Of a stretch of 64,000 bases of DNA, positions 9,020-63,640 are shown piece after piece. How positions within the stretch are numbered: position 1 is the first letter of the stretch; every line of letters starts with the position of its first letter. The notes beneath the pieces were generated by a model that was given only the letters and a program-made list of their open reading frames with translations, was not told where the DNA came from and did no database searches. The position numbers and the translations under genes were made by a program. The stretch covers positions 74,074,645 to 74,138,644 of the forward strand of contig OW121853.1 in NCBI GenBank assembly GCA_933228895.1, read 5' to 3'. The DNA comes from Platycnemis pennipes. Its lineage: Eukaryota > Arthropoda > Insecta > Odonata > Platycnemididae.

Positions 9020-9036
9020 CTTCCCCATGCATGATT

Positions 9037-9332
9037 CACTGTAAAAAGTAGATCTGATTTTAAGGTACAAAAGCGATCTGAATTTCAGATGCAACAATTT
9101 TAAGACAGGGTATGTTGAATTTCAGCAGTAATATCTTGTCTAAAAATAAGGCAGGTGAACGACTGAAAATCAGACCATCCAGAATCCTGCTTCCTCTGCT
9201 TCCTGCTTAACTGCTCCTACACCAACCATCCATGTTCCTGCCTCTTCCGCACCTTGCATCCGTGTTCCTGCCTTAAACCAGACAGCGCTTAAATTCAGAT
9301 CGCACTGAAAATCAGATCAACTTTTTACAGTG
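9037..9332 (+). mobile_element. CACTG-ended MITE, copy 1
   Basis: A 296-bp element starting CACTGTAAAAAGTAGATCTG and ending with the complement of CACTGTAAAAAGTTGATCTG. It is flanked by the 2-bp repeat tt (9035-9036 and 9333-9334). Copies at 44109-44405 (inverted) and 63026-63322 are over 90% identical by eye and also have 2-bp duplications. CACTG termini with a 2-bp duplication suggest a non-autonomous CACTA/EnSpm-type element. Confidence 0.85.
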
Positions 9333-9484
9333 TTCAATGGTTGCGCTCTGAAGGTTGTTTCCACGGTACGCGCTGTCACATACGCTATGTGCATTGTGAA
9401 AACTCCTCTCCAGCTCCTCCACAAAAGAAATTGTGGAGGCTTGAATAAACTAAGCAATTGGTGTTCATTCAATACTGAACGAGG

Positions 9485-28281: not shown

Positions 28282-28684
28282 AAACCAGGTGCATAGTTGG
28301 GATTAACGATTAAATAAATTAACGATTAAAATTAATCGTTAAAAATATGGTTAACTATTTAATTTAATCGTTACTTATTAGAAGAATTAACTTTCAACTT
28401 TTAATCGTAAAAAGTATCTATTAACTGATACAAAAATAACTTGTTAATTTTTTTCGTTAAATTTTGGTGAATGTCAATCTGTCCGAATTTGGGTGCAAAG
28501 CTTGCCCAACAGACGAATCGGAACATAAAACGGTATCTAAGAATGCAAGGGTAGTTGTGCAAGAAAGCAATGAATAGGCCCAGACGAATGCAACCGAACA
28601 AAAGCGGGGCTTAGGGGAGTGACCGCCAAAGTTTAGGAAAAAACACGAAACCACGCGAAGACGATGGACGGCTCGTATGCCTAA

Positions 28685-29197
28685 AGGTGGGGTTTCACTG
28701 GTGCGTCTCGCAGCTGCGTCCAGACGCTGCGGCTGGACGCATTGTACTGCTACTATGTATTCTAATTGGAGTGACTTCTCTAGTGCGTCCAGGACGCTGC
28801 GTCTACCAGACGACTGCTTGCGTCTGCGGCTCGACTGCTTCGTGAGCAGTCGAGACGCAGACGCAGAGCTAGCAGGACGGTGTTCTCTCGTACATTTCTG
28901 CGTGCCTGTGTCGCAGCATGGCTTGCCGATGTTCCCCGAAAGAGGACGATGTTCTGATTGAAGAAGTGATGAAGAACGAGGCCGTGTATAATGCAGAACA
29001 CAGGGATTATGAGGATACGACCATAAAAGATAATATTTGGTCCTCGATAGCCGGCGCAGTAGGAAAAGAAGGTATTTAAATTACATTGTACTGTGCGGCG
29101 GGACGCATGAGTGAGTGCAGTCGGCCGCATGTCCCACCGCAGCGACTCGCCGCAGCGGTCGGACGCAGCCGCGAGACGCACCAGTGAAACCCCACCT
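28685..29197 (+). mobile_element. PIF/Harbinger-type element, internally deleted
   Basis: Ends AGGTGGGGTTTCACTGGTGC and its complement, with inverted repeats of over 40 bp. Flanks are taa (28682-28684) and tta (29198-29200). The uninterrupted paralogue at 56971-56983 reads tatgccttactcgg, giving a TTA target. A 3-bp TWA duplication is the hallmark of PIF/Harbinger. The 513-bp element keeps a MADF-type exon but no DDE transposase. Confidence 0.8.
28918..29079 (+). CDS. MADF-domain N-terminal exon of a Harbinger-type element
   Basis: A 53-codon frame opens with ATG and reads CSPKEDDVLIEEVMKNEAVY, then NAEHRDYEDT, then KDNIWSSIAGAVGKEG. This is the start of a MADF (Myb/SANT-like DNA-binding) domain, whose pattern is LI..V..NP.LYD..H..Y.D...K...W..IA. 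PIF/Harbinger elements encode a Myb/MADF-type partner for the transposase, which helps bind the ends and enter the nucleus. The frame runs into GAAG|GTATTT at 29068-29077, a plausible splice donor, with a stop directly behind it. It looks like exon 1 whose downstream exons were lost in the internal deletion. Confidence 0.65.
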   Translation: MACRCSPKEDDVLIEEVMKNEAVYNAEHRDYEDTTIKDNIWSSIAGAVGKEGI

Positions 29198-29425
29198 TTA
29201 CTCGGTGACATCATGCCGTCAATACTACATACATAGTTGAAGCCGAGAAAGAAGGGTCGCCTGAAAACCTATGACTGATAACGTGTGGGAGGGGTTCATT
29301 CAAACTAACGTATCTTTTACAATGCGCCAGTCTATGTATGCCTTACTCGGCGACATTGCGTCGTCTATAAATCAGCCCCCAGTGAATCGCGAGAAAAGGT
29401 GCGCAGGCACACCCTCAGAATCATA

Positions 29426-43495: not shown

Positions 43496-44108
43496 TCTTC
43501 TCTATGTTTTTTTAAATGATAATTCATTTCCACAACCCACCCTCTTCATTGAGCAAATGAGCATAACTGCCGGTCGCATTCCCAAACACCCTCCCCGAAG
43601 GACTTGGAAATATTTCAGGAAGAAAAAGATGATATTCTCTCGCTGGCTCCTGTGGTTCCTCATTCATTATTCATTGAACTGCCGACTTCATCGCGTGGTG
43701 TGGTCCACGGCTTATCTTCCACGAATGCTCACTCATATTCCTCGGTCATGTGACACCAAGGAACGAAGGATCCGGAATCAATTATCGAGCCTATTTTTAC
43801 GAGTCCAACTCAAATAAAGATAAATGTTTCACTGCCTTCCGACAGATAAGTCGGGAACATTCACCGTCGTAGTTACGGCGGTCATGTCCTGATAGTAAAC
43901 CGCTACTGCTCTCCGGATTGCTCCGATAATCGGAGACGAACCTCTTTTACGGTCAAGTTCTCTTTTACGGCACATCCCCATGGAGCCTACTGATATAGCA
44001 GTAACGTTTCAAATTAATCACCCGAGAAGATAACGAACTATTTCGTTCAATAATATCACTCAGCGATTCATATTCACCACGCTCCGGAGCTCTTCAGCAC
44101 CATTATAT
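43496..44108. other. Unannotated stretch
   Basis: Frame 43557-43817 (plus, 86 residues) is unrecognised. No gene called. Confidence 0.35.
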
Positions 44109-44405
44109 CACTGTAAAAAGTTGATCTGATTTTCAGTGCGATCTGAATTTAAGCGCTGTCTGGTTGTAAGGCAGGAACACGGATTTAAGGTACGGAAGAG
44201 GCAGGAACATGGATGGTTAGTACAGGAGCAGTTGAGCAGGAAGCAGAGGAAGCAGGATTCTGGATGGTCTGATTTTCAGCCGTTCACCTGCCTTATTTTT
44301 AGACAAGATATTACTGCTGAAATTCAACATACCCTGTCTTAAAATTGTTGCATCTGAAATTCAGATCGCTTTTGTACCTTAAAATCAGATCTACTTTTTA
44401 CAGTG
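44109..44405 (-). mobile_element. CACTG-ended MITE, copy 2
   Basis: 297 bp, inverted relative to copies 1 and 3. Flanked by at (44107-44108 and 44406-44407). Starts CACTGTAAAAAGTTGATCTG and ends with the complement of CACTGTAAAAAGTAGATCTG. Confidence 0.85.
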
Positions 44406-45075
44406 ATTGAATAGCACCATTTCAGCACCATTATATTCAATAATGATATTGAAGGTTCGTTTCGTTTTGTAAAATTTCATCTAACTCACCTCTCTATTTC
44501 TAAGTAAGTTTCCGAGAAGTAGTAGTCTTAGTTATTAGGTGCTTCAGCGGCTGATGTTATATCTCGCTTTATAACCTAAGATCTTAATCCTAAGACAAAG
44601 ACAAAATCCATGATCTGGGTGGTATTGGAGTCCGCGACCACTGGATTGCCAGGCCGCGTTGCGTTATTGACCTGACTACCTTAGCCAGTATAAACTTTCG
44701 ATCTGTAAATTAACCGATTAAGCTTTCGTGGATCAAGCCATAAATTTAAAAAAATTCTTTCGGGGTATCTTCCGTGTTAAACGAATGAAAACCGGTGATT
44801 CTCCTCAAGTTCCGGAGGCTTTTTGTAGGGTGTGTTGGTAGGTCCATGTCATGAATTTATTCTTTGTATTTTCAAGGCAGCATGGAAGGAAATAGGGGAG
44901 AGGGGAGAACTCTTAGAAGGTGAGTTGCTCGAGTTCTTTTCAAAATCACTGAATTCCGTGTCTCACCTGGACCAAACAGAACCTGAGTAAGGCACGGAAT
45001 CAGGATATCGTGAGGAACACAGCCCACCCACCTTATAAAGGAGTCCCCCAAAATATAAACCCACTAATACATCCT
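44406..45075. other. Mostly unannotated, with a weak SINE-like piece
   Basis: At 44605-44695 the complement reads actggctaaggtagtcaggt and gtggtcgcggactccaatac, loosely like a tRNA-derived head in minus orientation. Otherwise nothing supported. Confidence 0.3.
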
Positions 45076-49744: not shown

Positions 49745-50165
49745 TGAGATCGGTTTTTTATCGGGTGATTAACAAGTACAGTCCAAGTTCCCTTGGAGAC
49801 GTATTTATTCGGCACCTTTCCCCCCCCCCCTTGAAACGAGACGAGCAGAAAAGGATAGGGAAGGAAGGGCAACTTCTCCTCTTGTCCGCGTGCTTGACGG
49901 CAACCGGTGTTGGAAGGATGCTTCGGCGTCGTTCCGCTTGCTGGCCTCTAAGGCAATGAGCCCCCGCCTTGGCCAGGCCCTCCTTTCTATATCGAGGCTG
50001 GCTTTTGACCCTCCGCCGGGGCCCCTGTTGGATTGGGATACTGCTTTTAGCGGCCGGAGTGGCCGATGACTCGACTCACTCTTCGCGCTGAGTCTTGCTT
50101 CTCCGATCCCTTTCCACATTAGCGGTAAACAAAGGGGGGGGGGGGGGTGGAGGAGACACGGTTCA
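49745..50165 (-). repeat. 3' LTR of the chimeric element
   Basis: Minus strand runs TGAACCGTGTCTCC to CCGATCTCA. It includes a 14-G run (plus strand, 50134-50147). It is preceded on the minus strand by a polypurine tract. It is GC-richer than its surroundings. Confidence 0.85.
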
Positions 50166-50183
50166 TCCTCCCTCTCTACCCTC
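50166..50183 (-). other. Polypurine tract of the chimeric element
   Basis: The minus strand reads GAGGGTAGAGAGGGAGGA directly against the LTR start TGAACC. Position and composition are as expected for the plus-strand primer, and this fixes the LTR boundary and the orientation. Confidence 0.8.
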
Positions 50184-51108
50184 GCCAATTATCTCTTCCT
50201 TTCACCATCTCAGACCCGGTCAAGTCTTCGGGGACAACAAAGGGGTAGTATAGGGAAGGTAGGGAGGTTTTTCTGCTCGCATCGGCCAAGGGTTTTCACA
50301 CATCCAAAGCTTTACAATCAAAATACATGTTTTAGTAGCACAACAAAATCACTCCAAAGTATTGAAAGGCATAACAGTTAAAAACCTTTAAAGGGTAAGA
50401 GAGTATACAATAGTAAATGCTTTGTCAGATGAAAAATCATTCCAAACATTAATTTATAACACCCATGATTTACATCAAGCAACAAGTAAGAAATTATTGG
50501 TGCGAAAATAGTGAAAGAAGAAGACTAATATGAAATTCCAAGATATATTAATAAATGTCAATAAGGGTACATATTACGTACACCCACTGTGCACAACACA
50601 TTAAACAAAATAGGCACACCATGGGATATATAAATAGCTCAATAAAATTTTAAAAAATCTTCCCAAAACAAATTACACAAATGATTAAAGTGCGATAACT
50701 TTACATGTCATTTTCACATGAAGGACAAGTAAAAAAATTAGTGATGGGAAAACACATGATACAAAAGCTTCAGTTACATAAATACTACAAATTATCCAGA
50801 AAAATAGTTGTCTTTACGATCTACGACAGCAGGTACATACCGTAAAAAAACTAATAGCTGCATTAGGAAGATCATAAATTATACACCTCGTTTGTTAAAT
50901 TCGCAACAAGCCGTATGTATTGAAAATATTTGCACTTCATTAATCACATGATAGGGGCACCATGATTGTAAAATAGGCTTATGACTTTATGCACAACAAA
51001 GAGAATATGTAGTATTGAAACCTTCTGTTAGGTAACTTTAAGTAAGAAATGATATGGTAGATGATGGGTTGCATACTACCGCAAAGAGCATTCTACAAAT
51101 ATCTTCCC
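50184..51108 (-). other. AT-rich 3' region of the chimeric element
   Basis: About 900 bp, markedly more AT-rich than the LTRs and pol, with stops in all frames. It lies between a short ORF (51109-51342) and the polypurine tract, where an env gene or 3' UTR could be expected. The composition shift resembles a host 3' UTR. No match is visible by eye. Confidence 0.4.
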
Positions 51109-51342
51109 CTAATTTGGTGTGTCTTCTAAGCCTTCCTTCTTGGGTGCCGAGCTTCTGCCCACACCCTCTCTTGAAGCATCATCGTGAGATAGGTTGCTGT
51201 TTAGTGCTCCAATAAAGTTGCATGGTTTACCATAACAAAAACATAACTTAGCTGTCACATCAACATAACTCTCCGACAAAGAATAGCACCTTGACCCAAC
51301 GATAACAATAATTACCCCCTTTTTTTTAACAGGCGTTAACAA
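51109..51342 (-). CDS. Short ORF in the 3' region, origin unknown
   Basis: 77 residues from an ATG at 51342, containing SESYVDVTAKLCFCYGKPCN and ending EGVGRSSAPKKEGLEDTPN. I do not recognise it. It does not resemble integrase, gag or a retroviral envelope. It sits between the pol remnant and an AT-rich stretch that looks like a 3' UTR, so it could be the end of a third captured host transcript. It could also be a chance frame. Confidence 0.3.
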   Translation of the reverse strand: MLTPVKKKGVIIVIVGSRCYSLSESYVDVTAKLCFCYGKPCNFIGALNSNLSHDDASREGVGRSSAPKKEGLEDTPN

Positions 51343-51537
51343 GACTACCCCGCCCTGTTATAGTGCATCCTACTTAAATCTAAGTACTCAGCACTCCCGG
51401 CAAACCCAAAAAAAAAGAAAAAAAATTCGACTCGTGCAGCTCCGGAGTCGATCCCTCGGCGTCCTCCTCCACCAGCCGCCGTCCAGACAAGAGGGGAAAG
51501 GTGGGTGGGTAGGAATACCGATTGCTCCGATCCCCAG

Positions 51538-53320
51538 CTAACAATTGTGGGTGTCACCTTCTTCTCTCCTCGAAAACTGTTTTATTTGAGAAACGTGACA
51601 CCTCCTCACGAATGCGCCCGTTCGTTCCTCGGCGAGTTCGACAGTGACTGGGCTCGTAAAATTGGAAATTGTGCATGGCCGAGGCCACCTAGAGAGGACC
51701 TTTCCCGTCACTTAATTAGGAGCGGAGCTAATGGGATGCAACCGGTATACGACAATATCTCCTACCCGGAATTTCTGTGGTTTCCTGTCCCGATTGTACC
51801 TAGACGCAACCTTTTTATTTGCTAGTTGGAGATTTTTCAGAGCCTCTTCCCACCGCTGCATGACGTTGTTCTCTCCCGCCGGGTCAGTTAGTTGTTCGTC
51901 GATCTCCCACTTAATGCCCAGGGGATCATTTAATTCTCTCCCGAAAAAGAGACTCGCTGGCGAACATTTAGTGCTTTCATGACGTGCTGAATTGAAGGCC
52001 ATCATTAACGCTCCTAGATTTTCGTCCCAATGATCCTGACTTTGATTATGGAATATGCTTAGTGCGATCTTGAGATTTCTGTTTACCCTTTCTACTTGGG
52101 AAGCCTGCGGGTAATACGGCGTCGTAGTTATGTGTTTTATCCCCCATTTGAAGCACATCCCTTTAAATGTCTCCGACGTGAATACGCTAGCGTTATCCGA
52201 AACGAGGTATTTGGGAATCCCGCAGACCGCGAAAACTCGACCGTTTAATTCTCTAACGGTGGTTCTGGCTGTCATATCTCGCGTGGGGATAAACATCGAG
52301 AACTTTGTAAAGCCATCTACGATCGCCAGTAAACACTTGTTCCCCCTCCTAGTACGCGTTAAAGGCCCCATATAAAAAATATAAATTTTCTCCCACGATT
52401 CGCTGCATATCTGCGCCGCATGCAGCCCGACTCGTGTATCCTGGGCTGGTTTCGCCCTTTGGCACTCCTCACACGTGCGTACGTATCGCCGTATATCCCC
52501 GTCCATTTTCGGCCAGTAAAAATCCCTTTTTATTTTTCCGGCGGTTTTCATGTATCCTAAATGTCCTCCAATTACCGAGTTATGAAAGTATTGCATGATC
52601 ATTTCCCGCGCCATTTTCGGGACGACAACCCGATTACGCCGGGCCCCCGCGGGGCGATACACTAATACTTCGCGTACTATTTTAAAATGATTAGGAGCAT
52701 TCCCGTCATAAACCTTTCTCTTTAATCTTTCGCATTCACTATCATTTACTTGGTGTTCTTTTATGGACAAAAACGAAAGAGGACTCAGGTCGAGGACGCT
52801 TATCACGTTCTCGTTACCCATCTCACCAGCCGTCTGGCCTTCGAAAATTCTTGACAGGCAATCTGCCACCACATTCTCGCTCCCTTTTACATGGTGTATA
52901 TGAAAAGAATAGGGCGATATCCTTAGAATCCATCTTCCGATTTTCCCTAGTTGTTTGGGATGTTTCTGGAGCCATGATAGGGCTTCATTATCTGTATATA
53001 GATCAAACTTTCGTCCTAACAGATATTTTTCAAATTTTTCTACCCCGAAGACTATCGCTAAGCATTCCGTTTCGTACGCGGAATATTTTTTTTCTGACGG
53101 CGTGAGGGTGCGACTCGCAAAGGCCACAGGCGCGAGCTGACCTTCTACTCGTTGAGACAATACGACTGCCATTGCGTTAGTTGACGCGTCGGTGTAAAAC
53201 GAACCCCTTATTAAAGTCTGGGATCTATAGCACCGGCGGTGATGAAATTTTGACTTTAAAGTTGTTCAAAGGACTCCTGTTGTTCTTTTCCCCAGGAAAA
53301 TCGTACTTTCTTTCTTTTTA
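51538..53320 (-). pseudogene. Ty3/gypsy pol remnant: RNase H and integrase
   Basis: Starts within the RT-RNase H hinge (VRFSWGKEQQESFEQL), is broken by a stop and a frameshift near 53200-53260, then runs 486 codons (53172-51712). RNase H: the first Asp lies in TDAS just upstream of that frame, then Glu36, Asp61 and Asp104 (VADCLSR). The HHCC zinc finger has His197, His204, Cys234 and Cys237. The integrase core has Asp326 (SDNASVF) and Glu361 (VERVNR), 35 residues apart, but the first catalytic Asp of the expected DFMGPL box is replaced (residues 266-270 read FYMGP). A stop at 51712 is followed by about 58 further in-frame codons of integrase C-terminus (SRWPRPCTISNF, HVSQIKQFS). RT, protease and gag are missing. 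The product would be inactive. Confidence 0.9.
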
Positions 53321-54018
53321 ACATATTCAATTTTGGATAGTATTTAGCCATCCATCCATTAGACTTCAAAAACAATTCCACAATGAAAAGCCCATATTCA
53401 GAACCATGAACTGCTGCTGTTACGAGGCCGTTTAGAAAACCTAAGTCCAGGTCCTTGCAAGGTCCTTCCTCCAGTTTCCCAAGAAATATATTATAAACTA
53501 CCATTGCGCAGTAGTTAGCACATTTCTGGTCACCGCAACTAAGAGAGGCACTTACTACTACGGCATCTCCCCCACACTACGACCTTAGTTTTCTCGTTAT
53601 TCACCGTTAAATTTCCTAGCAGCTGAACACCCAGTCTAATACAAATATTACGTTCTTCTGAAGTCGGAATGGTCTCGATCACGGAGCCAACCAGTTTAGC
53701 AATTTAAGGTAATCCCTTGCCGTGGTTAACGATGTAATCCTGATACCCTCTGCTCAATGCACACGCATTCCTCAGGTAACGAAAACAGGCACACGAACCT
53801 TCTAAACTTATTCCTGGGGAGAAATTTTCACTAAAAGCCAATAGTTCATCACAGTGCTTGTCTATTTCCACTTCATCGGAGCTATTCATACTTGCAAATG
53901 CTATTCTACGATTAATATCGTAACATATATTACTCAATATGACTTCACTGCCACAACTACAGTTCACAACATCAACCATAAACCGATTCAGTTCCACTAA
54001 ATTCCATACACTAAACAC
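53320..54018 (-). pseudogene. ATXN10: ATXN10 (ataxin-10) retrocopy, intronless, partial
   Basis: Conceptual order: CACFRYLRNACALSRGYQDY near 53780, a stop at 53704-53706, then KLVGSVIETIPTSEERNICI, RLGVQLLGNLTVNNEKTKVV, W, a one-base frameshift in a G run near 53572, then SCGDQKCANYCAMVVYNIFL and FIVELFLKSNGWMAKYYPKL. This follows the N-terminal armadillo region of ataxin-10, where ECFRCLRNAC, L.FLGN and DLFLKS..L...FPKL are conserved. No intron interrupts about 210 codons. An ATG at 53979-53977 could be the start, though the frame is open upstream to 54018. The sequence passes in frame into pol at about 53320. Ataxin-10 is a cytoplasmic armadillo-repeat protein; this copy is disabled and C-terminally truncated. 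Confidence 0.8.
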
Positions 54019-54237
54019 GCATGTTTTTCAAGGCCAAGAACAATGAAATTTTATGAAGCAACGAGCACATGGTCTACAATTCAACTACAATACAATTACA
54101 ATTGTGCCCTGCTCCAAAAATCGGAGAAGTTGACAGCTGATTTTGGCGTCCTTGCTCGAAGTGTATTTTAAAGAAAAGAAGTGCATGAAAATTCATGCTC
54201 AATAATATACTTGTGTGAATCTAGCTCATGTGAAAAA
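54019..54237. other. Short spacer between the two captured genes
   Basis: About 220 bp between the head-to-head ATXN10 and TOPBP1 copies. It could contain 5' UTR of one or both transcripts. No LTR-element sequence is recognised in it. Confidence 0.35.
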
Positions 54238-55719
54238 TGGCAGGTTGTTTTGAAAATGTCCAAATTCCAACAGTCCAGAAAAATCCTCTTCCAGAGTCAC
54301 AGTGGTGAATTTGGAGGATGCTGGCGAAGCTATGCCAAACAATTTGTCCAACAAAGACGTTTCACAGGAAGATGGGGTTCCTGAGAGTTCCAACGTTCCC
54401 CCTGGAAAATTATTTCATGGTTTAAAGTTTGTGGTGGCAGGATTTGATGGGGATCCTGATGATGAAGATGCAGGGGAAAAGATAAGGCAAATGCTGACGG
54501 AGTTAGGGGGTCAGGTGACGGTGAGACGCTTCAGGGGCATTCCAGACTACGGCATTGTACCTGTTGAAGGAGGCTAACTGCCCTGCACAGTGGGCGAAGT
54601 TATTACCCCTCTGTGGCTGGAGGATTGTAATGATCAGAGTAAAGTAATTCCCGTGGAATATTATCATCGTTCCTTTATGGTGAAGGCCAAGAGTAGATGT
54701 GTGACTGGTATCAGCACTTATTCAGAAAAAGGAACGACTGTATATTGCAAGTTTAGCCAAAACTTTGGGAGCTTATTCCCAGGAAGTATTCTCCAAGAAG
54801 GACATTCCAGAGAAGAATGCTGTAGCATATACTCATCTGATTTGTCCAACTCCTGAAGGAAACAAGTATGCAGCTGCCGTCAAGTGGGGTCTGCCTGCAG
54901 TGACTAAGGACAGGATACTTGCTTGTGCCCAGAAGGGACAGAAAGTGCCAGAGGCTGATTACTATGTGGTGAAATGTGGACAATATTCACCTTAGCTTGA
55001 AGCCAAGGAAACTGGGTTGTTGGTGATTGGTGACCCATCTGGTACCAGGTTCACGTATGCTAAAAAGTGGGGAATAGGGTAGACCGGGGCAGGTTTGGTA
55101 CAGGGGCAAGTTTACACACTGCTTATTGCTCACAAACTGTTGATCGGAGCGCAGCAATTGTCACATCAGGAGAGTCATTGGGACCGCCATTTACATTTAT
55201 GTAAGTCTGCAGTCATAGTGACGAGTGAAAATCAATAGAGAGCAGTATTTGTGATTTTTCTTTTAGTGAGTAAACTTTTTCACCACTACGATGGCATTAA
55301 TAACTTCTATACCATTAGATGTTCACAACTCATTATGGTTTATCCTGTTAGACTGTTCTTTTGATGTTAATATAAGATATTCAGTTGAATACCTACGTCG
55401 TGAACCAAACTTATATTTTACATTTAGTCGAAAATGTGCCGAAGGGGCAAGTTTACACAAGGCACATGGGGCAAGTTTACACATTCTTCAAATCGTGTAA
55501 AGGTGCCCCGTGCTTTTCAAACACTAGAACACCTGAACTCACCTGCATACTTAGAACGTCTGCACGGTCATTTGTGCTGAATTTGATATATCATAGGGAT
55601 TATAGGTTAATTTTGCTTCTTTTCAAGGCAATTAGAGGAACATCAAAAAATGTATATTAAAAATATAAAAAAATTTCACTTCATAATGGACCGTCCGATT
55701 CTTTCAAGACTTTTACTGT

Positions 55720-56525
55720 GATCGTCTGCCCCAAGAAGGGACAGAAATATCCTTAACTATTCATTCTTTTTTACCACCCATTCCAAATAATATTGCTAGA
55801 AGCGTGCGTCAGAAGCGTAGCGCAAACGTCTACCCTCTTGGACTGAACGAGAAACTACAGGAGTGGATTGGTTTCTGGGTTTTTAAAATGGCACAACTCT
55901 TTATGAATCAGGGCAACTCAATCTACTAGCCTTGCGAGAGCTACTAGTTTCAATTGGACATATATCGCGGCTTTCTTCAAAAATTTAACGATTGTCATGA
56001 ACCACCTTAAGATCGGCTCATCAGATATTTGGAATGCAGATGAAACTGGCGTGATTGCAGTTCACAAGCCTAATAGTTGGACTGAAAGGATTCCGCCCGA
56101 GCGGTAGAATCGCATCCGCTGAAGGAGAGACTCTTGTCACAGTGGCATCACCTGTAAATGCTGCTGGTTACAGCATGCCTCCATTCATCGTGTTTCTCAG
56201 GGTAAACTGCCAGCCAAAATTTGCTCGTGACGACCCTGTAGGCTCTGAAGGAGATGCCAACTCCTCATGTTGAGCAGTTGAGAAAAATGGTTTTATTTGG
56301 CAAACACTTTGTTCATCATGCTCGATGCTCTCCTGAGCGGCCATGTCTATTGCTTCTCGATAGCAGTGATTGGCACCTCTCAATTGAACAGCTAGATTTC
56401 TGCAAGGTAATGGCGTAACACTTTGGGTTTTCCCTCCCCATTGCATCCACTAGCTTCAATCATTGACTGGAGCGTATACGGCCCATTGAAAAAGTTCATC
56501 AACACTGCCTGTGATTCATGGATGA
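55720..56525 (+). pseudogene. Pogo/Tigger-like DDE transposase relic
   Basis: Readable pieces across frames: NIARSVRQKRSANVYPLGLN, LKIGSSDIWNADETGVIAVH (first catalytic Asp in the NADETG box; NMDETG is usual), KGFRPSGRIASAEGETLVTV then AAGYSMPPFIVFLRVN, and near the end WSVYGPLKKFINTACDSWMT. The order matches the DDE_1 superfamily (pogo/Tigger/jerky). The second Asp region (LLLDS..HLS) can be made out around 56345-56385. Many stops and frame changes, so it is dead. The N-terminal DNA-binding (CENP-B/HTH) part is missing or unreadable. Confidence 0.75.
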
Positions 56526-56553
56526 CTAGCGTCCAATGACTATATATGACACA

Positions 56554-57150
56554 CAGAGTTGGGATTAACGATTTAAAAAATTAACGATCAAAATTAATCG
56601 TTAAAAATGTGGTTAACTATTTAATTTAATCATTTCTTTTTAGAAGACTTAACATTTAATAGTTAAAATTATGGATTAACTGATATAAAACTATCTTCAG
56701 TTAATTTTTTTCGTTAATTTTTGGCGAATGTCGACCTGTCCGAATTTGGGGGCAAAGGTTGCTTAATTGACAAATATCGGTATCTTTTGACAATTGACAA
56801 ATTGCAGTATCTAAGAATGCAAGGGTAGTTGTGCAAGAATGCAATGGATAGGTCTTGACGAATGCATCCAAACAAAAGTGGGGATGAGGGGAGTGACCAC
56901 CGAAGTTTAGGAACACACCCTCAGACGAGAAAACACGAAACCACGCGAAGACAATGCCCTTGTGGGCTCGTATGCCTTACTCGGTGACATCATGTCGTCA
57001 ATGCTACATTGAAACCGAGAAAGATTAGTCGCATGAAAGCCTATGACGGATAAGAATGGGGAGGGGTTCATTCAAACTAATGTAATTGTCACAAGGTGCC
57101 AGTCTACGTGAGTCTTGCTCGGCTACATTGCGTCGTCAATACACATCCAC
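56554..57150. mobile_element. hAT element copy 2 (left part), nested in the pogo element
   Basis: Starts CAGAGTTGGGATTAACGATT and follows the element at 28292-30317 for about 600 bp, up to ctcggctacattgcgtcgtc. It lacks the Harbinger insertion and so provides the empty site (tatgccttactcgg at 56971-56984). The right end is absent, replaced by acatacaataaatacac-type sequence. Confidence 0.75.
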
Positions 57151-57772
57151 ATTTAATACATACAATAAATACACATGCATACAAATACATACAATCTACA
57201 TCTACTTCCGCCATCTGCTTTCTCCGTTTATTTAGTATAATTTTTGTCATGTTTTATTAACTACCACCCTTAACTTTCTTCTTTTTAAAAGGAGTGTAAA
57301 CTTACCCCAGGTACTGTGTAAACCTGCCCCCTTTAGGGCGCAAGTTTACACAGGTGACTTCACTCAATAATATTTTAAGTACATAAAAAAGTATGATAGT
57401 ATGAGGCTCTTGATAGGTTTCTAAATGGAGGTTAATTATCAAGTAATACCTCAGTATGGAAGGCATGTAAATCACTGCAATACAAAAAATAAGAAAAATC
57501 GAAATAAAAAAACTGTGTAAACCTGCCCCGGTCTACCCTACCGTGTGTGACACCACAGTGGGTGTATGATTCCTGCTCAAAGGGTTGCAGCTTACCTTTC
57601 GACGGTTATATTGTGGAGGGTGATTCCGCTGCAAAAGCTTCATGCTCTACTTCAGAGCAAGGAAAAACGCAAGAAACACTCACTGATGTTTCAATGTGTA
57701 GCACGATTGCTGAAGATAGATCTCGATTCAATGTTAATGAGACGGTGAACAGAGACTTCTCTTCTGCACCAG

Positions 57773-57790
57773 AACCACGCTCTGCTACCA
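57773..57790 (-). other. Primer binding site of the chimeric element
   Basis: The minus strand reads TGGTAGCAGAGCGTGGTT, 2 nt after the 5' LTR end (CTCA|ac). It is identical to the Copia primer site at 1514-1531. It proves the minus-strand orientation and shows that the TOPBP1 sequence begins immediately beside the primer site with no gag leader. Confidence 0.85.
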
Positions 57791-57792
57791 GT

Positions 57793-58209
57793 TGAGATCG
57801 GTTTTTTATCGGGTGATTAACAAGTTCAGTCCAAGTTCCCTTGGAGACGTATTTATTCGGCACCTTTCCTCCCCCCTGGAAACGAGACGAGCAGAAAAGG
57901 ATAGGGAAGGAAGGGCATCTTCTCCTCTTGTCCGCGTGCTTGACGGCAACCGGTGTTGGAAGGATGCTTCGGCGACGTTCCGCTTGCTGGCCTCTAAGGC
58001 AATGAGCCCCCGCCTTGGCCAGGCCCTCCTTTATATGTCGAGGCTGGCTTTTGACCCTCCGCCGGGGCCCCTATTGGATTGGGATACTGCTTTTAGCGGC
58101 CGGAGTGGCCGATGACTCGACTCACTCTTCGCGCTGAGTCTTGCTTCTCCGATCCCTTTCCACATTAGCGGTAAACAAAGGGGGGGGGGGGTGGCGGAGA
58201 CACGGTTCA
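57793..58209 (-). repeat. 5' LTR of the chimeric element
   Basis: 417 bp, about 97-98% identical by eye to 49745-50165 apart from G/C homopolymer length. Minus strand begins TGAACCGTG and ends GATCTCA. Confidence 0.85.
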
Positions 58210-58216
58210 CTATACA

Positions 58217-58500
58217 GACTATAGCCTTCATAGAGGGCAAGGGCCTAGCCATGTTGATACACCGGTTCCCGTCAGATCACCGAAGTTAAGCAACGTTGGG
58301 CCCGGACGGAGGTTGGATGGGTGTCCCCCTTCCATAACTCTACCGTGGTGTTCTTGTCCCCTGTCTGCGTGTGGCGGGCAGGTTAAATGTGGGTTGGCAC
58401 AATGGATCTAAAGAGGTCTAAGTGCCAGGGGGGCTCCAGAAGGCCTCCGCCCACTCCTCCAATTTACATTTATACCCTTCGTAGAGGGTAATCAATTTTT
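58217..58500 (+). mobile_element. 5S-rRNA-derived SINE (SINE3-like)
   Basis: 58248-58325 reads gcctagccatgttgatacac, cggttcccgtcagatcaccg, aagttaagcaacgttgggcc and ggttggatgggtg. This is a 5S rRNA 5' and middle region (usual CACCGGTTCTCGTCCGATCACCGAAGTTAAGCA with box C GGATGGGTGACC). The 5S 3' end is replaced by a body with gttggcacaatggatctaaa, aggtctaagtgcc and ggctccagaaggcctccgcc, ending ttcgtagagggtaatcaattttt. The upstream ccttcatagagggcaaggg mirrors that end. It is not a functional 5S gene, since the closing stem is absent. Confidence 0.8.
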
Positions 58501-63025: not shown

Positions 63026-63322
63026 CAGTGTAAAAAGTAGATCTGATTTTAAGGTACAAAAGCGATCTGAATTTCAGATGCAACAATTTTAAGACAGGGT
63101 ATGTTGAATTTGAGCAGTAATATCTTGTCTAAAAATAAGGCAGGCGAACGGCTGAAAATCAGACCATCCAGAATCCTGCTTCCTCTGCTTCCTGCTCAAC
63201 TGCTCCTGTACCAACCATCCATGTTCCTGCCTCTTCTGTACCTTAAATCCGTGTTCCTGCCTTACAACCAGACAGCGCTTAAATTCAGATCGCACTGAAA
63301 ATCAGATCAACTTTTTACAGTG
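63026..63322 (+). mobile_element. CACTG-ended MITE, copy 3
   Basis: 297 bp, flanked by tg (63024-63025 and 63323-63324). The 5' terminus reads CAGTGTAAAAAG (one change from CACTG); the 3' terminus is intact. The interior matches copies 1 and 2 closely, including a cctgcttcctctgcttcctg tract. Confidence 0.85.
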
Positions 63323-63640
63323 TGGGAAACATCTGTGATAGAATCAAATTATTCCATTATCATCGGTTCAGAAAATCATGAAACTGGAGGGTTAAAAAAT
63401 AAGATCTATTGGCAGCAATCTACTTAAGGAAAAACTTTTCTAGAGCTTTACTTCTCCTTTCAATCAGAAATCGAAAAAATAACTCGACATTAGATCCTTC
63501 TCGTGGGAGAAATCTACGCTAGAAACGGGAATCATTCAAACGCATTCATAAGTTCCGGAGATACGGCGTCACAAACACACTCCACTAGACGATAAATTAA
63601 TGCAGATAGATAATAATTTCCAACCACAGCGTTATTACGT
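63323..63640. other. Unannotated stretch
   Basis: AT-rich, no supported feature. Confidence 0.35.

Follow-up and report, generated by a model that had tools for sequence, protein, structure and literature searches.

How can a retrotransposon with long terminal repeats (LTRs) come to carry pieces of host genes in place of its own? The question is raised by a locus of the odonate Platycnemis pennipes (assembly GCA_933228895.1, contig OW121853.1), of which we analysed a window of 64,000 nucleotides, the whole stretch to which positions without a contig prefix refer. A preliminary description of this DNA recognised at 49745-58209 an LTR element that had captured, by template switching, an ATXN10 fragment in sense and TOPBP1 segments in antisense from two host messenger RNAs (mRNAs). 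Comparison with the host genome bears out the capture of host RNA by switching: seven introns (five of TOPBP1 and two of ATXN10) are gone at GT/AG borders, in addition to one back-splice, and 6 and 8 bases are shared at joints with the element. It replaces the count of two mRNAs by at least three genes and probably a fourth locus, with a TOPBP1 template that was most likely circular. We hold it likely that the front half of the element, from just past its primer binding site (PBS) to the reverse transcriptase end, was replaced by complementary DNA (cDNA) of at least three host RNAs in an aberrant reverse transcription. Capture by both DNA strands is a reading that the preliminary description did not contain.

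The element lies on the minus strand and is of Ty3 type. Its 5' LTR (57793-58209) and 3' LTR (49745-50165), in the same orientation, are 97% identical, with 9 substitutions and 2 gaps over 416 aligned bases, and both have TG..CA termini in the minus-strand reading. The 18-nucleotide PBS (57773-57790, minus strand) is the same in 3 of 3 relatives examined, and we take its primer to be initiator methionine transfer RNA (tRNA). The polypurine tract (50166-50186, minus strand), identified by eye, is a pyrimidine run on the plus strand adjoining the 3' LTR. The element flanks, TTAT and CTAT, agree in 3 of 4 bases and are a possible target-site duplication. The pol remnant (51540-53330, minus strand) consists of the reverse transcriptase end followed by RNase H and then integrase; the last two are matched by Pfam, and the closest relative of solved structure is yeast Ty3. 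Its reading frame is broken near 53265 and near 51712, and by eye the integrase does not show its expected first catalytic Asp. These features agree with the earlier view of one minus-strand element in which only the RNase H-integrase part of pol is left, and the LTRs are a pair rather than two unrelated solo insertions. The RNase H-integrase order and the paired LTRs with PBS and polypurine tract make the element a member of Ty3/Gypsy. The LTR pattern had no match in IMG/VR; a search there for pol relatives gave two pattern matches, neither confirmed, and the phage search gave none.

The TOPBP1 cargo, antisense to the element, has a single intron-containing parent gene on contig C1 of the host assembly searched (1.79 Gb, 88 contigs; 7 of 7 candidates scored). 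Compared with solved TOPBP1 chains, 54705-54995 matches with an expect value (E) of 2e-11 and 54999-55076 weakly (E 1.6) to a different part of TOPBP1; we take the matched parts to be BRCT5 and BRCT2. The segment 57541-57780, searched alone against solved structures, gave no match. Read along the plus strand, the cargo begins with the last 10-11 nucleotides of an exon X (C1:156404772) and exons A, B, C and D in forward order (54268-54975; C1:156409073-156415737). Directly after exon D comes the start of an exon E (54976-55076; exon start C1:156402003), whose end is found together with part of exon F at 57541-57780 (C1:156402104-156402224 and C1:156402697 onwards, plus strand). The exon order is X, A, B, C, D, E, F in the element and E, F, X, A, B, C, D in the genome. 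All joints, forward (X-A, A-B, B-C, C-D, E-F) and backward (D-E), have a GT donor and an AG acceptor. Joined 30-base sequences match the window at 26 positions for X-A, whose first bases are already TMEM50, at 29 for A-B, B-C and D-E, at 30 for C-D and at 25 for E-F; exon F has 13 differences from its parent in 101 bases. The claim of intronless antisense TOPBP1 stands, with five forward splice joints, and is amended by the back-spliced exon order.

The D-E joint (54975/54976, plus strand) brings the end of exon D (C1:156415737, donor GTATGT) to the upstream start of exon E (C1:156402003, acceptor TGATAG), a genomic offset of -13735; the sequence reads GTGAAAT up to the joint and GTGGACAATA past it. 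Exon E occurs at one genomic location besides the window (7 of 7 candidates scored), so that a TOPBP1 exon duplication is ruled out as the cause of the exon order. Copying of a linear TOPBP1 mRNA would require two switches, both exactly at exon borders, while a back-spliced circle yields the joint directly. As judged from this sequence signature of back-splicing, the TOPBP1 template was most likely a circular RNA.

Beside exon X, and likewise antisense to the element, a TMEM50/UPF0220 gene is represented by its 5' untranslated region (UTR) and the first 32 bases of its coding sequence (54102-54268, plus strand; C3:4523106-4523272), 97% identical to the parent with 5 differences in 167 bases. 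Downstream exons that continue the TMEM50 frame match UPF0220 (PF05255; E 3e-14 and 8e-7). Pfam has no match for the first 33 residues of TMEM50 taken by themselves. The gene on C3 presumably resembles human TMEM50A. A filler of 16 nucleotides made of TTGTA repeats (54086-54101) separates this piece from ATXN10 sequence (53325-54085, minus strand) that comprises the 5' UTR and the beginning of the coding region and is sense to the element, with two introns removed. The ATXN10 cargo has a single parent gene, on C7 (4 of 4 candidates scored), in segments C7:44881207-44881736 (96%), 44881832-44881993 (98%) and 44887669-44887736 (100%). Both introns are absent at GT...AG, with a small local change in the element beside the first joint. 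The name presumes a resemblance to human ATXN10; three pieces gave no useful Pfam result, and a single piece compared with PDB had no match. Intron-containing parents exist, as predicted, for both ATXN10 and TOPBP1, and alignment to them confirms the exon-exon junctions inside the fragments. The earlier call of an intronless sense ATXN10 fragment holds over the corrected extent 54085-53325; the segment 54102-54268, considered as ATXN10 5' UTR, was rejected, as it maps to TMEM50 and no further ATXN10 piece was found in 50 kb of C3. The ATXN10 and TMEM50 pieces stand head to head, each ending in its 5' UTR.

The joints between element and host sequence are informative. The first base past the PBS is already TOPBP1, and the leader that follows the PBS in 3 of 3 relatives compared in the same genome (C44:1470359, C3:26721411 and C6:2884357) is absent. 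Eight nucleotides, AACCACGC on the plus strand (57773-57780), occur in TOPBP1 exon F as well as at the inner end of the PBS. At the other border, sequence comparison with the relatives reveals TTGAAT (53325-53330, minus strand) as common to ATXN10 and pol: the pol of the element starts at TTGAAT, where ATXN10 reads CCAAAATTGAATCC and the pol of the relatives reads GCGCCGTTGAATACGTTAAAAAG. The chance of such sharing is about 1.5e-5 for the 8 bases at the fixed PBS end and about 0.001 for the 6 bases between pol and ATXN10. The relative C44:1470359-1476490 has 2361 bases from PBS to TTGAAT; the element has about 1.98 kb of host-derived sequence there, a later DNA transposon not counted.

The splice borders indicate which strand was copied. 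They fix TOPBP1 sense RNA as template, so that the DNA copied on it was the plus strand of the element, and by the same argument ATXN10 RNA templated the minus strand; antisense host transcripts are rejected as templates, their splice sites facing the wrong way. The opposite orientations of the cargo therefore point to capture by both DNA strands. Normally, plus-strand strong-stop DNA stops after copying 18 tRNA bases, at a modified base, and moves to the minus-strand copy of the PBS. We favour, somewhat above even chance, a new route in which a minus strand without PBS leaves the plus-strand strong-stop DNA to prime, through the inner end of the PBS, on an unrelated host RNA, here circular, with the two strands capturing different RNAs and then being joined.

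Minus-strand synthesis would have copied element RNA from the 3' LTR inwards, past integrase and RNase H, before switching to ATXN10 mRNA at TTGAAT and reaching the 5' end of this mRNA or its vicinity. Since a minus strand that strayed in this way would never copy the PBS, the plus-strand strong-stop DNA (LTR and 18 nucleotides of PBS) would lack its normal partner. Its 3' end, GCGTGGTT, could pair with AACCACGC in the circular TOPBP1 RNA and be extended on the circle, around the back-splice joint. The plus strand would then have switched to TMEM50 mRNA, reaching or nearing its 5' end, before both 3' ends were joined via the short TTGTA-repeat filler and the product integrated. The end-joining step is the least supported part of this model. 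Together, the two strands would account for the orientation of the pieces, the missing leader, the position of the joint with the PBS and the meeting of two 5' UTR ends.

Several observations weigh against this two-strand capture, and some of them suit a stepwise origin, in which host pieces entered over at least two rounds of retrotransposition by ordinary template switching in each and the chimaera moved again afterwards. The cargo differs from its parents at 53 of 1019 bases for TOPBP1, 25 of 760 for ATXN10 and 5 of 167 for TMEM50, in total 83 of 1946 (4.3%) against 9 of 416 (2.2%) between the LTRs (one-sided Fisher p 0.025; without exon F, 70 of 1845, p 0.063). Parents under selection should change less, so the capture may predate the present insertion: the last insertion may be younger, after several possible rounds, and an older chimaera may have moved again with enzymes from relatives. 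The low LTR divergence may alternatively reflect homogenised LTRs. A 3'-UTR-like segment of the element is present in 26 other family copies and so may also be older. A stepwise origin does not readily explain that TOPBP1 and TMEM50 share one orientation and start exactly at the PBS end. Moreover, other copies of the LTR with the same cargo, a check proposed in the preliminary description, did not turn up: besides the window locus, the genome search found no ATXN10 or TOPBP1 cargo next to the element, first-pass searches being loose and failure to find a copy not being proof of absence. We regard stepwise capture as possible but rather doubtful. The two-strand capture is further weakened by the TOPBP1/TMEM50 junction, which shares 1 base only, and by the 16-base filler, which the model does not explain. 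The TMEM50 piece has no splice joint, and its origin from RNA is deduced from its position; likewise, the TOPBP1 circle and both transcription starts are deductions from sequence.

A search for inverted repeats that would pair the 12 kb upstream of exon E with the 4.3 kb downstream of exon D found none, which speaks against a circle and in favour of a linear TOPBP1 RNA whose exons were reordered by trans-splicing of two transcripts, with the other steps unchanged. Trans-splicing would produce the same joint, but joints of this kind usually come from back-spliced circles, and we consider this alternative unlikely. Insertion into an existing LTR element of pseudogenes processed by long interspersed elements (LINEs), or of end-joined linear cDNAs, would agree with an intronless cargo and with the existence of a separate old intronless TOPBP1 piece (C44:51873873-51874296). 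It fits badly with the cargo edges read, which carry no poly(A) tract, with the capture of ATXN10 and TMEM50 as 5' rather than 3' ends, and with joints that fall on the PBS end and on the 6-base pol match, and is very improbable. Capture at the DNA level or a segmental duplication between coincidental LTRs has no observation in its favour and a negligible probability, seven parental introns being absent from the cargo; it is refuted for TOPBP1 and ATXN10, the intronless TMEM50 piece apart. We privilege the copying of a TOPBP1 circle and TMEM50 mRNA by the plus strand and of ATXN10 mRNA by the minus strand.

Part of the 3' region probably came from a fourth host locus, on C3 at 37.33 Mb, perhaps more than once. 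A segment of 97 nucleotides (51102-51198, minus strand) is 94% identical to C3:37326757-37326853. The relative C44:21578 tracks the element up to AGCAAC at the joint and then diverges, and the C3 locus also has AGCAAC. The adjoining 3'-UTR-like segment (50320-51110, minus strand) is 94% identical to C3:37332228-37333015 and is the one that, with 36 of 36 candidates scored, recurs at 81-86% identity in 26 other copies of the family; since these copies share it, its transfer may have gone in either direction. Up to the 3' boundary, 11 of 11 comparison windows place the element closer to the C3 locus than to the three relatives compared, but in some of them a relative is as close to that locus as the element or closer (97% versus 94% in one). 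C3:37332228 is a candidate last exon with splice sites that look weak by eye. Outside the LTR family, 51110-50320 is found once, on C3, and is possibly a host 3' UTR fixed in the element family. The 82-residue open reading frame (ORF) at 51109-51357 gave no protein family or solved relative, two PDB matches at E 1.5 being taken as chance, and Pfam gave only weak, chance-level matches for three ORFs at the fourth locus.

The LTR has at least 41 matches in the genome, including both LTRs of the element (40 of 96 candidates scored). Six related LTRs were inspected with 1.5 kb flanks: five have a clean 4-base duplication (AGGC, CATT, TAGT, CGGT and CCAT, CGGT having been read further out than its match, which started within the LTR) and one matches in 3 of 4 bases. 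None of the six has flanks similar to the element interior, so that they look like solo LTRs. The old TOPBP1 piece on C44, 77% identical, holds parts of three exons, stops about 2 bases short of the back-splice point and has no other likeness to the element within the 9 kb fetched. Exon E of the cargo is split by a DNA transposon (55077-57538) with terminal inverted repeats and a duplicated TA (55075-55076 and 57539-57540), which inserted later, the exon continuing on its two sides. It is pogo-like by eye only, and no Pfam transposase was found in four pieces of it. Nested in it is a repeat (56554-57141) with 77-80% identity to a longer copy at 28292-29369. Elsewhere in the window are three copies of a repeat of about 300 bases (9036-9341, 44099-44406 and 63026-63323; 96-98% identity), an ORF (1575-2171) that looks by eye like a Copia-type gag and, 27 bases outside the 5' LTR, a 5S rRNA-like sequence (58237-58358; Rfam RF00001, 47.7 bits) that could be a 5S-derived short interspersed element or a pseudogene.

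The element shares with Ty3/Gypsy the RNase H-integrase order and sequence, LTRs, PBS and polypurine tract, and differs from its relative C44:1470359-1476490 by the exchange of the PBS-to-TTGAAT interval for host-derived sequence. It is unlike a LINE-processed pseudogene in that what it holds of ATXN10 and TMEM50 comes from their 5' side and the edges read have no tail. LTR-mediated retroposition (Tan et al. 2016) is described in PMC5408686 and PMC8232201 as the entry of host mRNA into an LTR element through template switches where short sequences are shared. As in the animal cases described there, intronless host sequence is flanked by LTRs and short runs of bases are shared at joints (8 and 6, and 6 at the fourth locus). 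Unlike those cases, the element has at least three RNAs in both orientations, one of them back-spliced, and plus-strand DNA as the putative acceptor for two. Maize Bs1 likewise unites pieces of three host genes in one LTR element (PMC13317346, PMC5408686); in the excerpts consulted, which mention neither a circular template nor plus-strand capture, its chimaeric gene is said to be transcribed and translated, whereas those frames that were read in the Platycnemis element are broken.

Pseudogenes derived from circular RNA (circRNA), such as mouse circRFWD2 (Dong et al. 2016), have back-splice exon order, mostly no poly(A) and reported LTR sequences in their flanks (PMC5345220, PMC5408686). The element resembles them at D-E, where two exons in reversed order meet in an exact GT/AG joint that matches in 29 of 30 bases. 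Their route is called unknown in those texts, or LTR mediation is only suggested, while here the putative copy of the circle lies inside an element and starts at the PBS. Both the capture of mRNA by LTR elements and the occurrence of circRNA pseudogenes close to LTRs are already known; their combination here is new, and a partial survey of the literature yielded no description of plus-strand priming by the PBS end on host RNA nor of a circRNA copy within an LTR element. The element records, base by base, how an LTR element can take up several host RNAs, and predicts a signature that can be searched in other genomes: antisense host exons that start exactly at the PBS end and share primer-site bases. 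It also offers a testable origin for circRNA-derived pseudogenes, whose insertion route is called unknown in the consulted part of a review (PMC5345220).

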